Assembly (NCBI RefSeq): GCF_035987325.1
Contig: NZ_CP108488.1
Coordinates: 7,502,001 to 7,566,000 of the forward strand
Origin: Streptomyces sp. NBC_01244
GTDB taxonomy: Bacteria > Actinomycetota > Actinomycetes > Streptomycetales > Streptomycetaceae
Direction of reading: 5' to 3'
Length of the DNA stretch: 64,000 bases
The translations under genes and the position numbers were made by a program. Positions 57,944 through 64,000 of this stretch are shown here, piece by piece; within the stretch, counting starts at the first letter, position 1; each line of letters opens with the position of its first letter. Under the pieces are notes generated by a model. The model saw only the letters and a list, made by a program, of their open reading frames with translations, had not been told where the DNA came from and did no database searches.

Positions 57944-59209
57944 ATGCGATTTCTGTTTGTGCACGGCACGGGGGTGCGGCGCGAGCGGCACGACCTGCTC
58001 TTCGCCCTGGTCCGGGACCGGCTGTCCGCCCGGTTCCCCGGGGCGGCCGTCGACTCCTGCTTCTGGGGGGAGCGGTACGGGGCCGCCCTGAGCGCCCAGG
58101 GCCGTTCCGTGCCCGGACTGAGCGCGCCCGGCGCGGGCCCCGGCCCGGACGACGAGGAGATCGCCGAGTGGGGGCTGCTGATCGCCGACCCGCTCTGCGA
58201 GCTGCGGGTACTGGCGGAAGCGGGCTGGGACACCGGAGCCGACGGCCACCCCGACGGCCACCCCGACGGCGCGCCCGATGACGACGGCTTCGCCATGCCC
58301 GGCGTCCAGTCCGCGGGCGAGCACGTACTGGACCTGCTCGCCGAAGTCTCCGGGGTCCCCGACGGCGGCGAACAGGCCGCGTTACTGCTCGGCACCGGCC
58401 TCGCCGCCGGATTCCCCGCCGCCCTGAAGACCGTCTCCCGTTCCGCCGAGGCCGCCCGCGCCGGAGCCCGGGCCACCGGCCAGCCGCAGGCCCGGGAGCT
58501 GGCCAAGGCCCTGGCCCGCGCGGTGACCGCCGCCGCCCTCGCCTCGGCCGGAGCCGAGGCCGACTGCACCGGAGCCGAACGCGACCGCCTCGTCGAGCTG
58601 ATCACCACCCGCCTCGGCGGCGACGCCCGGGTCCCCGGCGCCCGGGCCGCCGCCGTCCTCGGCCGGCTCGCCCTGCGCGTCACCACCCAGCCGCTGCTCA
58701 ACGCCTGGCGCGGCTCCCTCACCGTCGGGGCCACCCCCGCCCTCGGCGACATCCTGCGCTACCAGGCCCGGGGCGCCGACCTCCGCGCGTTCCTGCACGA
58801 GCGGATCACCGCCGAGCCGGGGCCGACCGTACTCATCGGCCACAGCCTCGGCGGCATCGCCCTGGTGGACCTCCTCGCCCTGGCGGCCGCCCGCGGCGAG
58901 CCGGTGCCGGGAGTCGAACTGCTCGTCACCGTCGGCTCGCAGGCACCCTTCCTCCACGAACTCGGCGCGCTGGCCGGGATCGTGCCGGGCACCAGGCTCC
59001 CGTACGCCTTCCCGCGCTGGCTCAACGTCTACGACCGCCAGGACGTGCTCTCCTACCTCGCCGAGCCCGTCTTCCCCGGCGACCCGCGCGTCAGCGACCA
59101 GGAGATCGGCAGCCGCCAGCCCTTCCCGGCCTGCCACAGCGCCTACTGGAAACAGGACGCCCTCTACGCACGCATCGAACAGGCGGTGGCCGAAGCGGAG
59201 ATCGGGTGA
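57944..59209 (+). CDS. Alpha/beta hydrolase, first gene of the VMAP-MoxR operon
   Basis: The 421-residue protein begins RFLFVHGTGVRRERHDLLFA, the oxyanion-hole strand of the alpha/beta hydrolase fold. The nucleophile Ser301 lies in TVLIGHSLGGIALVDLL, and a C-terminal His is in FPACHSAYWKQ, so a full triad is plausible. A helical insertion of roughly 200 residues sits between the first strand and the nucleophile elbow, with a DGHPDGHPDG repeat. There is no signal peptide, so it should act in the cytoplasm. ATG 57944 follows GGAG (57935-57938). Its stop overlaps the GTG of the next gene (GTGA, 59206-59209). It is probably an effector (lipase, esterase or deacylase) of the downstream system (inference). 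Confidence 0.82.
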   Translation: MRFLFVHGTGVRRERHDLLFALVRDRLSARFPGAAVDSCFWGERYGAALSAQGRSVPGLSAPGAGPGPDDEEIAEWGLLIADPLCELRVLAEAGWDTGADGHPDGHPDGAPDDDGFAMPGVQSAGEHVLDLLAEVSGVPDGGEQAALLLGTGLAAGFPAALKTVSRSAEAARAGARATGQPQARELAKALARAVTAAALASAGAEADCTGAERDRLVELITTRLGGDARVPGARAAAVLGRLALRVTTQPLLNAWRGSLTVGATPALGDILRYQARGADLRAFLHERITAEPGPTVLIGHSLGGIALVDLLALAAARGEPVPGVELLVTVGSQAPFLHELGALAGIVPGTRLPYAFPRWLNVYDRQDVLSYLAEPVFPGDPRVSDQEIGSRQPFPACHSAYWKQDALYARIEQAVAEAEIG

Positions 59210-61278
59210 ATCCCCTCGACCTGCTGCCCGCCGACCTGGGGCCGCGCACCTTCGCGCTCGTCGCCGGGGTCGAGAGCTACGACGTCAGCCGCCACTGGAA
59301 CCTGCGCGGTCCGGCCCGCGACGCCCTGCGGTTCGCCCGCTGGCTCACCGGACCGGGAGAGGTGCCGCCGGACCACGTACGGCTGTTGCTGTCCCCGCTC
59401 GACGACCCGGACTCGCTCGACTGGTCGGCCTCCGCCGCCCTGCGGGCCTTGCGCACCACGCACCGCCCGGCGACGGAGGCGAACGTGAAAACGGTGCTGT
59501 TCGACGAACTCCCCGCGTGCGAAGGAGATCTGCTCGTGATCTTCTGGGCCGGGCACGGCTACACGGAACCGCGCCGCGGGGAACTGATGTTGCCTTCCGC
59601 GGACGCCAGGCCCGGCCAGATCCGCCACCTCAACCTCGACTCCGCACTGCGCTGGTGGCGCACCAACCTCGTCAAGCGCGAGCTCTTCCGGTACCAGGCC
59701 GCCCTGGTGGACGCCTGCCGGGTCGACGCACCCCGCGACGCCCGGTGGAACTTCGGCACCAGCGACTACGGCGGCGGCGCCACCGTCCCGGGACGGCGCC
59801 AGTTCCGGCTGTACGCCTCCCGCGAGGGCGAGGCCGCGAAGAACGACGCCGAGCGCGGCGCGGGCCGCTTCACCGAGGAACTCCTCGCCGAACTCGGCGA
59901 ACGCCCGGTGCGCGAGGCCGTCTCCGGGCTCGCCGACACCGCCCGCTCCATCCACCGCACCTTCCTCGGCCTGCGCGAACGCGGCGAAGGCTGGCAGCTC
60001 CCGCAGTTCGTCGTGGACCGCGACTGGGACGCCTGCTCCTTCCTCGAGGACGATCTCCCCGGAATGCCGCCGCCGCGCGCCGGCCGCCTCGACCAGGCCG
60101 CCTGGGACGGACTCGGCGAGCTCTTCGAGGACCGCGACCTGCCCCGCTGTGCCTACGAGGCGTACCTGTGGGCGTTCAAGGCGGCCGGCTGCGCGGCCCC
60201 CGCCCGGGGCGGACTGCCCGGCGACACCCTGCTGGAGGTGGTCCAGGACCTCGACGAACGCCACGGCGGGCCGGGCGGGATGCCGCTGCCGGTGCCCTTC
60301 GTGCGGTTCCTCGGAGAACAGGGCGCGGCGGGAGACGAGCCGTGGGCGGCCCGGCTGCGCGACTGGGTACGGGCCACCCGCGATCGCCTGGGCCTGCCCG
60401 CGCTGCCGCCCCCGCCCCCGCCGCCGCGCAGGACGGCCCTGCACGTGCGGCTGGAGACGCCGCCGGGCGGGGAGGACGGGTTCCTCGCCCGGATGTGGCT
60501 GCGGCGGGAGGCGACCGAGCACATCTGGGAATCGGAGGGGGAGCCGGTCCGGCTGGACGCGGTACGGGACGTACTCGTAGGGCAACTCATCGCGGCGAAC
60601 AGGGCGTTGGGAGTCGACGCGGAGGCCGGGCGGCCGTCCGGCGCGGTGGAGCGGATCGAGTTCCACGTGCCGTACGAGCTGCTGGACCTGGACTTCGACC
60701 AGTGGCCGGTACCGCGCGGCCCGGGCAGGCGGACCCGGCCCCTGGGGGTGCTCTACCAGGTGGTGGTGCGCTGCCCGCAGGAGCGCGAGTACAGCGGCGC
60801 CGAATGGCGCGGCAAATGGCGCTGGCTGTGGGCCCAGGGCGGCCGGCACCCGGAGGCGGTCCGCGTGGTGGCCGACGCGGACGCGGCCGACGGGCTCGGC
60901 ATGGAACTGGGCGCGGGGCCGGCGCCCGCGTGCGTACTGGCGCACACCCGGGCCGGGGCGCGGACGGCGGCGGTGGTGGAGGCGGTCCTGGAGGGCGGTG
61001 TCCCGGTGGCCCTGTGGCACCGCGGCCCCGCTCCGGGCGGGCCCGCGGACGACCTGCTCGCCCTGCTGGTGCCGGCCGGCGAGGACGGGCGGCCGCCCGA
61101 CCCCGGCGCACTCGACGTGCTCGCACTGCCCGCCCGCGTGCGCGCGGTGCGCCGGGCGGCCGCCGTCGCGGGCGCGGGCGCCCCCGGAGGCGATCGCCGA
61201 CAGCCGCCGGGGGGAGACCGGTTGGTCCTCCTGTGGGACGATCCCGACGACACCCTCACCCTGCGGTCCCTGGCTTGA
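59206..61278 (+). CDS. Caspase-like protease with VMAP-C-like C-terminal domain
   Basis: The 690-residue protein has two parts. Residues about 12-260 form a caspase-fold (clan CD) domain: FALVAGVESYDVSRHWNLRG at the start, the catalytic His117 in LVIFWAGHGYTEP and Cys171 in AALVDACRVD. The C-terminal half resembles the vWA-MoxR-associated protein C-terminal domain (VMAP-C), with TALHVRLETPPGGEDGFLAR, RIEFHVPYELLDLDFDQWPV and LGVLYQVVVRCPQE. A central helical region links them. GTG 59206 overlaps the hydrolase stop by 4 bp. In MoxR-vWA-VMAP systems this protein is thought to be the activated effector/adaptor; here the caspase would be the protease effector. The fit of the C-terminal part to VMAP-C is by eye. 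Confidence 0.82.
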   Translation: MNPLDLLPADLGPRTFALVAGVESYDVSRHWNLRGPARDALRFARWLTGPGEVPPDHVRLLLSPLDDPDSLDWSASAALRALRTTHRPATEANVKTVLFDELPACEGDLLVIFWAGHGYTEPRRGELMLPSADARPGQIRHLNLDSALRWWRTNLVKRELFRYQAALVDACRVDAPRDARWNFGTSDYGGGATVPGRRQFRLYASREGEAAKNDAERGAGRFTEELLAELGERPVREAVSGLADTARSIHRTFLGLRERGEGWQLPQFVVDRDWDACSFLEDDLPGMPPPRAGRLDQAAWDGLGELFEDRDLPRCAYEAYLWAFKAAGCAAPARGGLPGDTLLEVVQDLDERHGGPGGMPLPVPFVRFLGEQGAAGDEPWAARLRDWVRATRDRLGLPALPPPPPPPRRTALHVRLETPPGGEDGFLARMWLRREATEHIWESEGEPVRLDAVRDVLVGQLIAANRALGVDAEAGRPSGAVERIEFHVPYELLDLDFDQWPVPRGPGRRTRPLGVLYQVVVRCPQEREYSGAEWRGKWRWLWAQGGRHPEAVRVVADADAADGLGMELGAGPAPACVLAHTRAGARTAAVVEAVLEGGVPVALWHRGPAPGGPADDLLALLVPAGEDGRPPDPGALDVLALPARVRAVRRAAAVAGAGAPGGDRRQPPGGDRLVLLWDDPDDTLTLRSLA

Positions 61279-61368
61279 ACCCGATCCCGCTCCCGACTTC
61301 GCATCCGCACCGATCCCGATGACCGCTCGCGGCGACGGCCCGCGACACCGACGATGGAGGCAGAGGCT

Positions 61369-62460
61369 GTGGTGAAGGACTGGTGGCTGTACCAAGGGAC
61401 CGGCGAGGCCGCCGAGCGCCGGGCCAGGCTCGAGGCCGGACCGCCACCGCCCTGGCGCGACTTCAAGGGCGTCCCCGACCCGGGGTACACGCCCCCCGGC
61501 TGCGAGGGACCGGCCTGGGAGCGCACCTGGCGGCGCGGCGAGGGATACGTACCCGACGAGCTGGAGAAGGACGTGGTCAACACGGCCCTGCACCTGCGCC
61601 GGCCGCTGCTGATCACCGGCAAGCCGGGTGTCGGCAAGTCCACGCTCGCCTCCAGCATCGCCGCCGACCTCGGCCTGGGACCCGTACTGCACTGGCCGGT
61701 CACCAGCCGCACCGTCCTGCGCGACGGCCTGTACCTGTACGACGCGATCGGCCGGCTCCAGGAGGCCGGGCTTGAGCAGCTGCGCACGCCCGGCGCAGAG
61801 CCGCCCGCGGCCCACGGGCACGGTCCCGCCCCGGCCGACGGGCACGTTCCCGCCCCGGCCGACGGCGGACCGTCCATCGCCCGCTACCTGCGTCTCGGCC
61901 CCCTCGGCACGGCTCTCCTGCCCCAGGACCGCCCCCGCGTCCTGCTCGTGGACGAGATCGACAAGAGCGACATCGACCTCCCCGGAGACCTTCTGACCGC
62001 CTTCGAGGACGGCGGCTTCGTCATCCCCGAGCTCGCCCGCCTCGTCAAGGAGGCCCCCACCGTCGCCATCGGCACCGACGACGACACCGAGGAGGTCGTC
62101 CGGATCTCCCAAGGCCGCGTCCAGTGCCGGTACTTCCCCATCGTCGTCCTCACCAGCAACGGCGAACGCGATTTCCCGCCCGCCTTCCTGCGCCGCTGCG
62201 TCCGGCTCCACCTGGACCCGCCGGGACCCGACAAACTCGCCCGCATCGTGCGCGGCCGGCTCGGCGTCGACATCGAGAACAGCGACGAGTACCGCGATCT
62301 CGTCCGGAGCTTCCTGGAACGCGCCGAGGACGGCGACCTCGCCACCGACCAGCTCCTCAACGCCATCCAGCTCCGGCTGGCCGGCGCCTGGTCCGCCCCC
62401 GGCGACCGCGAACGCTTCCTCGCCACCGTCATGCACCACCTCACCGGACCCTCCGCGTGA
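61369..62460 (+). CDS. MoxR-type AAA+ ATPase
   Basis: The ATPase has about 363 residues with Walker A ITGKPGVGKSTLAS (Lys90), Walker B RVLLVDEIDKSD (Asp195, Glu196), sensor-1 IVVLTSNGERDFPPAFLRR with the arginine-finger region, and a C-terminal lid ending MHHLTGPSA. MoxR proteins work with vWA partners as NTP-driven switches or chaperones. The start is taken as GTG 61369 because GGAGG (61356-61360) lies 8 nt upstream; ATG 61354 without a ribosome site would add five residues. The stop overlaps the next GTG by 4 bp (62457-62460), linking it to the SAV_2336-type protein. Confidence 0.88.
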   Translation: MVKDWWLYQGTGEAAERRARLEAGPPPPWRDFKGVPDPGYTPPGCEGPAWERTWRRGEGYVPDELEKDVVNTALHLRRPLLITGKPGVGKSTLASSIAADLGLGPVLHWPVTSRTVLRDGLYLYDAIGRLQEAGLEQLRTPGAEPPAAHGHGPAPADGHVPAPADGGPSIARYLRLGPLGTALLPQDRPRVLLVDEIDKSDIDLPGDLLTAFEDGGFVIPELARLVKEAPTVAIGTDDDTEEVVRISQGRVQCRYFPIVVLTSNGERDFPPAFLRRCVRLHLDPPGPDKLARIVRGRLGVDIENSDEYRDLVRSFLERAEDGDLATDQLLNAIQLRLAGAWSAPGDRERFLATVMHHLTGPSA

Positions 62461-64000
62461 TCGAGAAACTCCTCGCCGCCCTGGCCGAAGGCGCCGAGGA
62501 CAACAGCCCCCGCCCCGGAGTCGGAGCGGAGGAGATCGCCGACATCCTGTGGCTCGCGACCAGGGTCGACGCGGCCGGCCCCCGCCCGGATCCCCCCGGG
62601 TCACCCCCGGCGGGCGGCCCACAACCAGCCCCCGATGGCACGGAGTTACCCGCCAAGGCGCGCGGCGGCGCCGTCGAACCGGGCGTCCAGTACTTCCCCG
62701 CGGCCGCACCCGCACCCCCACTCGCACCCCCCGCCCCCGACGGCCCCGCGGAGCCCGCCGCCGGCCGGGCCGCCGGAGGCACCCCGGGCGGCGCGCCCGC
62801 GTCGCCCGCGCCGGCCGCGCGCCGGGGCACCGCGGTGCGGCTGCCGCGCGCCGCCACCCTCGACGACCCGCTCGCCCTGATGCGCGCCCTGCGGCCGATC
62901 GGCCGCCGCAGCATCGGCGGCCCGGGGGAGGAGCTGGACGAACAGCTCACCGTCGAGCGCAGCATCGAGCGGATGGTGCTCACCCCGGTCCTGCGCCCCG
63001 CCGAGAGCCGCTGGCTGGACGTGGCCCTGGTCGTCGACTCCCACCACTCGATGCTGCTCTGGTCCGACCTGGTGGAGGAGGTGCGCGGAGTCCTCACCCG
63101 CAGCGGGGTCTTTCGCGACGTACGGACCTGGCGGCTCACGGGGACCGGCCCCGGCGGCGCCCCCATGGTCGCGCACCATCGCGACAGCCCGCCCCGCAAC
63201 CCCCTGGAGCTCGTCGACCCGGCGGGCCGGCGGCTGATCCTGGTGCTCTCCGACACGGTCGCCGGCGGCTGGCGCGAAGCCCCCCTGCGCGGTGTGCTCC
63301 GGCAGTGGTCGGCGCACAACGCCGTGGCCGTACTGAACGTCCTGCCCGAGCGGCTCTGGACGCGCGGGGCGGTCCAGCCGGTCCCCTTCGCCGTGCGCGC
63401 GGACCGGCCCGCGGCGGCCACCCGCTCCTGGCAGCGCGTCCCGATCGCCCGGCGGGCCCGCGGCGGCGGGGCGGTGATCCCGGTCGTCGGCATCGCCTCC
63501 GGAAGCCTGGCCCGGCTGGTGCGGGTGGTGTCGGGCGACGGCCGCTGGCGGCGGCTCGCGTGCCTGCGCCTCGACGCGGAACCCGCGCGCGGGGGCCCGT
63601 ACGGGACACCCGGGGCCCCGAAGTTCTTCCCGGACCCCCTGGAGGCGGTGGAGCGCTTCCGTGCGAGCGCCTCGCCGACGGCCCAGCGCCTCGCCGACCA
63701 CCTGGCCGCCGTACCCCTCACCCTGCCCGTGATGACCCTCGTACGCCGCTCCCTGCTGCGGGACTCCGAGCACGGACACCTCGCGGAAGTCGCCCTGGGC
63801 GGGCTGCTCGCCCCTTGGGATGGTGAACAGGACGCCGACACCGCCCAGTTCGAGTTCCTGCCGGGCGTACGGGAAGCCCTGCTCGGGTCGCAGCTGCGCG
63901 GGGACGTGGCCGCCGTGCGGGAGTTGGTGCGGCGGCGCGTGTGGGAGTACATGTCCCACACGCGCGGCACCGGCCGGGACTTCACGGCGATCCGACGCGG
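62457..64000 (+). CDS. SAV_2336-type protein with derived vWA-like domain (partial, runs off window)
   Basis: From GTG 62457 the frame stays open for 514 codons to the window edge. A small N-terminal helical module (AAEGAEDNSPRPGVGAEEI-like, residues 5-35) is followed by 100 residues of Pro/Ala/Gly linker and then the SAV_2336-type domain: RSIERMVLTPVLRPAESRWL, then DVALVVDSHHSMLLWSDLVE and RLILVLSDTVAGGW. The strand ending DSHHSM (Asp194-Met199) occupies the place of a vWA metal site, but the canonical DxSxS is altered to DxHxS. SAV_2336-type proteins are mainly known from Streptomyces, with no defined function. Its coupling to a MoxR ATPase suggests it is the vWA-like member of the ternary system. 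Confidence 0.85.
   Translation, partial: MIEKLLAALAEGAEDNSPRPGVGAEEIADILWLATRVDAAGPRPDPPGSPPAGGPQPAPDGTELPAKARGGAVEPGVQYFPAAAPAPPLAPPAPDGPAEPAAGRAAGGTPGGAPASPAPAARRGTAVRLPRAATLDDPLALMRALRPIGRRSIGGPGEELDEQLTVERSIERMVLTPVLRPAESRWLDVALVVDSHHSMLLWSDLVEEVRGVLTRSGVFRDVRTWRLTGTGPGGAPMVAHHRDSPPRNPLELVDPAGRRLILVLSDTVAGGWREAPLRGVLRQWSAHNAVAVLNVLPERLWTRGAVQPVPFAVRADRPAAATRSWQRVPIARRARGGGAVIPVVGIASGSLARLVRVVSGDGRWRRLACLRLDAEPARGGPYGTPGAPKFFPDPLEAVERFRASASPTAQRLADHLAAVPLTLPVMTLVRRSLLRDSEHGHLAEVALGGLLAPWDGEQDADTAQFEFLPGVREALLGSQLRGDVAAVRELVRRRVWEYMSHTRGTGRDFTAIRR

Follow-up and report, generated by a model that had tools for sequence, protein, structure and literature searches.

Ternary VMAP-MoxR-vWA systems are computationally predicted conflict systems (Kaur et al. 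2020, PMC7159879; for this and the other papers cited below, our statements refer to parts of the text). Of the 716 organisms in which they were tabulated, 694 are multicellular bacteria. The systems are defined by the gene order VMAP-MoxR-vWA, by the MoxR motifs WxhapG and PsWRxa, and by a hypervariable tail on the vWA component, which also carries two aspartates of a metal ion-dependent adhesion site (MIDAS) and an N-terminal motif, [D/E]xxx[D/E]xxxa. The VMAP-M0 domain is present in 75% of members, and VMAP caspases are described as always having an alpha/beta-hydrolase gene adjoining them; related hydrolases are mentioned in GAP1-N1 GTPase systems. Here, we analysed a stretch of 64,000 nucleotides (the window) from Streptomyces sp. 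NBC_01244 (NZ_CP108488.1, positions 7,502,001 to 7,566,000), in which four genes on the + strand encode an alpha/beta hydrolase (HYD), a caspase-VMAP-C protein, a MoxR ATPase and a SAV_2336-type vWA protein. The locus is almost certainly a VMAP ternary conflict system of the caspase/hydrolase type. It belongs to an already predicted kind, and what we add is an evolutionary argument on which of its parts is the output.

In common with the alpha/beta-hydrolase-CASPASE subtype of Kaur et al., the locus has the order VMAP, MoxR, vWA, the VMAP-C domain, the MoxR motifs, the two MIDAS aspartates, a caspase on the VMAP protein, a neighbouring hydrolase and a variable vWA tail, although close relatives mostly share their tails. 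The pentapeptide repeats of the tail are likewise among the tail domains listed for the subtype. The differences are not categorical: VMAP-M0 stays under its cut-off, and one spacing of the vWA N-terminal motif is shorter by one residue. The original prediction had called a MoxR-vWA-VMAP ternary conflict system with a caspase and a hydrolase, which agrees with these published traits. It had also regarded two effector enzymes with a SAV_2336-type partner as unusual; this was not borne out, as a hydrolase is described as the constant neighbour of VMAP caspases (Kaur et al. 2020), and a novel combination is accordingly rejected.

HYD (57944..59209, 421 aa; from its open reading frame, triad and structural model) is followed by the caspase-VMAP protein (59206..61278, 690 aa; reading frame and profile matches), the MoxR AAA+ ATPase (61354..62460, 368 aa; reading frame, AAA_5 profile and motifs) and the vWA protein (62457..64000 in the window; reading frame and NCBIfam profile). 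The last gene is cut by the window edge; its genomic end is equivalent to window position 66140 (L009:9458-13141), giving a full length of 1,227 aa. HYD and caspase share a GTGA stop/start overlap (59206..59209) that can be read directly in the sequence, and a second one, deduced from the reading-frame ends and a GTG start, joins MoxR and vWA (62457..62460), while caspase-VMAP and MoxR are separated by a 75-bp gap. Coordinates and strand of the four genes, both overlaps and the numbering of Ser301, His117 and Cys171 thus hold as first described. The further operon genes expected beyond the right edge do not: there lies just the rest of the fourth gene and then a methyltransferase gene on the opposite strand. 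A scan of the locus for promoters and terminators found none.

Conservation was assessed in 80 relative loci (L numbers; G numbers denote genomes). These are the best 80 of 125 loci that a search by two hydrolase motifs retrieved, and the catalytic serine is part of one motif. Nineteen of them are from Nostocales and many others from Streptomyces, and the counts are not independent events; besides, the second-round hidden Markov models used for residue conservation, junctions and pairwise comparison were built partly from these same loci. A caspase lay at most 1.5 kb downstream of HYD in 74 of the 80 loci, which had been retrieved by HYD alone, and the complete HYD-caspase-VMAP-C-MoxR-vWA set was present in 44 of those 74. 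Six loci had no caspase near downstream (L116, L121, the fragment L128, L136, L137 and L142); in L136, L137 and L142, HYD is followed by VMAP-MoxR-vWA. At the 74 HYD-caspase junctions, a 4-bp overlap is possible in 53 cases, a gap occurs in 20 (19 of them Nostocales) and another kind of overlap in one. The four-gene order thus recurs in relatives, and together with the overlaps this rules out that the genes are chance neighbours.

Among 199 genomes of the same genus (here and below, tallies over genus genomes include the window's own), VMAP-C was found in 167 (E<=0.001), HYD in 41 (E<=1e-8) and caspase-VMAP matches, some covering just part of the protein, in 38 (E<=1e-10). HYD stood directly upstream of 34/38 caspase-bearing matches, the exceptions being two in G159 (including G159:C1:8779059), one in G120 (G120:C90) and a case with an EAD2 domain in G006. 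Conversely, 34/38 HYD matches of more than 1 kb had the caspase directly downstream; three of the other four have a divergent caspase there, and the fourth lies in a locus with an EAD2-caspase. The published rule that a VMAP caspase always adjoins an alpha/beta hydrolase therefore holds with exceptions.

In the 80 loci, the catalytic residues are intact wherever they are covered. The caspase domain (residues about 10-285; 59233..60060) matches the PADLOC caspase model (6e-15) and, far under the cut-off of 140, the NCBIfam model caspase_w_EACC1 (1.2e-10, 41 bits). This weak match is what the locus shares with EACC1-caspase systems; a Pfam scan found the EACC1 domain in none of the four proteins. 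A Pfam C14 scan of the caspase-VMAP protein gave no match, whereas relatives L134 and L176 do match. The dyad residues H117 (59554-59556) and C171 (59716-59718) are kept in 72/72 covered relatives, as is D169, and D39 in 74/74. Within the caspase domain, D39 and D169 are putative S1 acids by conservation and position, corresponding (by position, not by tested alignment) to the S1-pocket residues Asp95 in helix 1 and Asp211 in loop L4 of the metacaspase TbMCA2 (PMC4357240). By this analogy, cleavage after Arg or Lys is likely.

The C-terminal part of the same protein matches VMAP-C (Pfam PF20028; 60475..61245) with E 1e-35 and 124 bits against a cut-off of 27, preceded by a VMAP-M0-like middle region (60091..60402) that reaches 22.2 bits, below the Pfam cut-off of 25.9. 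A caspase with a VMAP-C-like tail, as first proposed, is therefore well founded. The predicted VMAP-C model is good, with a mean predicted local distance difference test score (pLDDT) of 87.7; a Foldseek search with it returned nothing below 1e-3, with a ciliary chain (E 0.028) in the first row. Among the best 50 of 170 matches, 21 were separases (13) or TPR-CHAT/Csx29 (8), about six proteins by their titles, with E 0.04-2.4, template modelling scores of 0.21-0.51 and high root mean square deviations. Such a likeness of the modelled domain to separase/CHAT peptidases, lacking significance, is a lead only. Profile-profile comparison gave no signal between VMAP-C and CHAT (P 0.75) or between VMAP-C and caspase, and the positive control, caspase versus CHAT, gave none either (P 0.26). 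Rows whose excerpt contained a stop had been left out of the alignments (11 of 30 for CHAT, 5 of 30 for VMAP-C).

HYD carries a GxSxG elbow, GHSLGG, with the conserved triad S301 (58844-58846), D364 (59033-59035) and H398 (59135-59137), placed by conservation and model. D364 and H398 are kept in 79/79 covered relatives and S301 in 80/80, the latter partly by construction, as the search motif included it. No Pfam family scored above cut-off in HYD; Abhydrolase_6 was matched at E<=0.01 by 21 of 40 HYD alignment members, though not by the HYD of this locus. The AlphaFold2 model (mean pLDDT 83) shows a helical stretch of ~220 residues (69-289, partly of low confidence) ahead of the nucleophile strand. 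Among Foldseek matches to the model, Bacillus lipase A comes first (probability 1.00, E 2.2e-3).

The MoxR assignment of the original prediction was confirmed by an AAA_5 match above cut-off (E 1.4e-6) and by the Walker A (61618-61641) and Walker B (D200-E201, 61951-61956) motifs, with K95, D200 and E201 kept in 52/52 covered relatives. The N-terminal motifs are present as WWLYQG and PPWRDF, and W34-R35 is found in 52/52 relatives. The fourth protein matches SAV_2336_NTERM (NF041121) at E 8e-111. Its putative MIDAS aspartates, placed by motif, are D194 (63036-63038), found in 48/48 covered relatives, and D266 (63252-63254), found in 49/49, and its N-terminus has E25, D29 and W32, the last spacing being one residue short of [D/E]xxx[D/E]xxxa. 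The MIDAS consensus is DxSxS. Residues 194-198 read DSHHS, and the first Ser of the consensus is replaced by His in 32/48 covered relatives. A literature search with the term 'SAV_2336' found no paper.

While the catalytic sites are constant, the vWA tails differ. The tail of this locus bears pentapeptide repeats (Pfam) past the window edge, and the ~410 residues before them (511-920) matched no profile. Two tail domains that had been considered, a dead trypsin-like one (about 511-735) and a cyclase-like one (736-920), were rejected, neither fold having profile support; under the trypsin-like reading, the catalytic Ser position was Ser in 0/15 rows and the displayed rows had no His at the usual place, and sub-threshold Trypsin_2 matches occurred in the tails of two relatives (L048, 0.0017; L050, 0.023). 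Across 48 tails (47 of 49 listed, L119 and L135 being left out, plus that of this locus), 61 Pfam families were matched, most often pentapeptide repeats (20) and TPR (16), besides NB-ARC (5), TIR (4) and Mrr_cat (3). We compared 46 complete systems pairwise (1,035 pairs), counting tails as homologous if a match extended over half of the shorter one. HYD, caspase, MoxR and vWA aligned in 1,035/1,035 pairs and VMAP-C in 890, as against 288/1,035 pairs with a BLAST match between tails. Homologous tails rose with HYD identity, from 2/210 pairs (30-40%) through 10/280 (40-50%) and 41/281 (50-60%) to 40/106 (60-70%). L048 and L049, which do not occur as a pair among the 46 compared systems, have unrelated tails (pentapeptide versus TPR) despite identities of 92% in HYD, 80% in VMAP, 89% in MoxR and 83% in vWA.

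The second line of the argument comes from HYD-caspase pairs on other platforms. Of 27 listed loci without a VMAP fusion, L100, L123, L124, L130, L132 and L160 were left out (truncated, at contig ends or VMAP-bearing), L144 was not scanned and L145 was added, so that 22 caspase proteins were scanned: 18 carry NB-ARC, two EAD2 and one an FGE-sulfatase domain, and 19 are from Nostocales other than Brasilonema. (The FGE-sulfatase protein, L131:11140-12876, is from Brasilonema and adjoins HYD.) As in the locus studied here, the Nostocales caspase-NB-ARC(-TPR) proteins (for example L139, L141, L147 and L170) have a homologous hydrolase (35-38% identity to this HYD in these four) upstream of an intact-dyad caspase; unlike here, NB-ARC and in some cases TPR take the place of VMAP (L141 joins caspase, NB-ARC and TPR within one protein), neither MoxR nor vWA was detected in the stretch fetched, and the first possible caspase start lies 155-381 bp past the hydrolase stop instead of overlapping it. 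In a further variant (L145, L171), HYD, VMAP-MoxR-vWA and a caspase share one locus as they do here, yet caspase and EAD2 sit on a protein of their own rather than on VMAP; for L137, a contig of equal length (L171) has this separate caspase-EAD2 gene ~9.5 kb away. EAD2 on VMAP itself scored above cut-off in L142 and slightly under it in L145, and it may bridge separate caspase and VMAP proteins. A literature search, which did not extend to supplementary tables, found no published description of the hydrolase beside caspase-NB-ARC proteins; this is no proof of novelty. These pairings suggest a portable output unit made up of a protease and a lipase-like enzyme.

As for the surroundings of the operon, a putative M6 immune-inhibitor-A-like metalloprotease gene (55261 to about 57678, - strand) lies divergent from it and has a homologue at E<=1e-150 in 116/121 genus genomes, with two in the window's own genome. 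In three genomes that keep this M6 gene, the neighbouring 8-10 kb gave no blastn match to the operon longer than 200 bp. The methyltransferase gene on the other side (L009:13153-13986, - strand) was matched at E<=1e-60 in 2/121 genus genomes, its own included. Damaged operon copies exist as well in two genomes of the genus: L054 contains remnants, and L046 has lost the VMAP frame, with no MoxR or vWA detected in the stretch fetched. The caspase-VMAP query matched two plasmid records, both at <60% identity, and the HYD query matched no phage record and no viral contig.

The reading that we favour, tentatively and at slightly less than even confidence, takes the tail as the sensor, MoxR-vWA-VMAP as the switch and caspase plus HYD as the output. 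How each part functions, which way the signal runs, that P1 is basic and that HYD is a lipase are all inferred from the genes. In this scheme, the vWA protein would sense an invader or damage through its variable C-terminal tail, upon which the vWA domain and the MoxR ATPase would remodel their complex with VMAP and so free or dimerise the VMAP caspase; that MoxR-vWA gates the caspase and the hydrolase, as first proposed, is accordingly the interpretation we would prefer. The caspase, cutting after Arg/Lys, would then activate the co-translated, lipase-like HYD, perhaps along with further proteins; HYD in turn would damage membrane lipids, leading to growth arrest or death of the cell. This assignment of sensor and output is moderately favoured because the enzymes stay intact while tails differ and because HYD-caspase also occurs with NB-ARC.

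Several observations weigh against this reading. At HYD identities >=70%, tails were homologous in 155/158 pairs (L127, with its truncated HYD, is a partner in each of the three exceptions, and L048/L049 serves instead as the example of a swap); tail turnover is thus slow among close relatives, and this sharing lowered our confidence from about even to its present level. Some tails bear enzyme-type domains (the TIR and Mrr_cat cases), which fits a tail that acts as effector. Identities across pairs correlate alike for HYD, caspase and MoxR (r 0.95, 0.96, 0.93); the whole core is thus inherited together, and by this measure nothing sets the HYD-caspase tie apart. In G159, a caspase-VMAP gene is followed directly by one for a SAV_2336 protein (L051 4633-8963), with neither HYD nor MoxR detected beside it in the stretch fetched; a GntR-type gene lies upstream, and a complete system (L050) ~35 kb away. 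The vWA-like domain stands on its two conserved putative MIDAS aspartates and the SAV_2336 profile, but not on Pfam or PDB profiles: none of 21 alignment members of the vWA protein matched Pfam VWA, and a PDB profile search retrieved no vWA chain. The HYD model had no Foldseek match below E 1e-3 (best 2.2e-3), and matches among the relatives of HYD extend to the PGAP1, thioesterase, LCAT and S33 families, so calling this enzyme a lipase is a guess. Besides, a literature search that covered papers in part turned up neither a phenotype nor biochemistry for a VMAP system, nor any experiment that put one to the test.

Kaur et al. (2020) place the sensor in VMAP. In their model it detects the invader, MoxR-vWA serves as a threshold switch, and cleavage of the vWA protein by the caspase releases the tail, which is the effector (decoy, scaffold or toxin). 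We consider this published proposal (PMC7159879) rather unlikely for the present locus. The minority of tails with domains such as TIR or Mrr_cat and the mostly shared tails above 70% HYD identity speak for it. Here, however, pentapeptide repeats are the sole recognised domain of the tail, behind the unmatched ~410 residues; relatives whose tails are unlike retain the catalytic residues of HYD and caspase; and HYD and caspase are also paired where NB-ARC takes the place of VMAP and the stretch fetched showed no vWA protein. In addition, a proposal for VMAP loci diversified by diversity-generating retroelements assigns sensing to the vWA tail and the effector role to the N-terminal domain of VMAP (PMC10907252).

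That the system might serve development or stress-induced cell death in filamentous bacteria, and not phage defence, has a low probability in our view. The link of VMAP systems to multicellular bacteria (694/716 organisms; PMC7159879) and the spread of VMAP-C through 167/199 genomes of the genus would suit such a role, but the patchy subtype (HYD in 41/199), the absence of the operon beside the M6 gene in three genomes and the damaged L054 and L046 resemble accessory conflict genes. That HYD is an unrelated esterase merely upstream is highly improbable: HYD-MoxR identities do correlate as well as HYD-caspase identities, yet caspase adjacency recurs with overlaps in Actinomycetota and without them in Nostocales.

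Coming back to the reading with caspase and HYD as output, a bolder version of it is improbable. In it, HYD-caspase would be a bacterial executioner cassette: the caspase would activate the lipase by a cut at Arg256, and the cassette would dock to different apoptosome-like sensors (MoxR-vWA-VMAP, a separate EAD2-caspase form and NB-ARC-TPR). VMAP-C would be a catalytically dead separase/CHAT-like domain and VMAP a tandem caspase-pseudocaspase. Arg256 (58709..58711), by itself a lead only, is Arg in 80/80 relatives within a mostly variable segment of pLDDT <50. It may be a caspase site or else have a part in structure or substrate binding. Its conservation is not distinctive, because six further Arg positions of HYD (12, 192, 213, 276, 281 and 382) are likewise Arg/Lys in >=95% of relatives.

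VMAP ternary systems are common in the genus, yet the two published models disagree on which component is the sensor and which the effector. As the genome of this strain holds a single VMAP-C match and a single SAV_2336 match by profile search, and as relatives offer a natural tail swap, the question of sensor and effector is testable with few point mutants. Should VMAP and NB-ARC proteins indeed share the HYD-caspase unit as their output, this unit would link two kinds of predicted bacterial death machinery.

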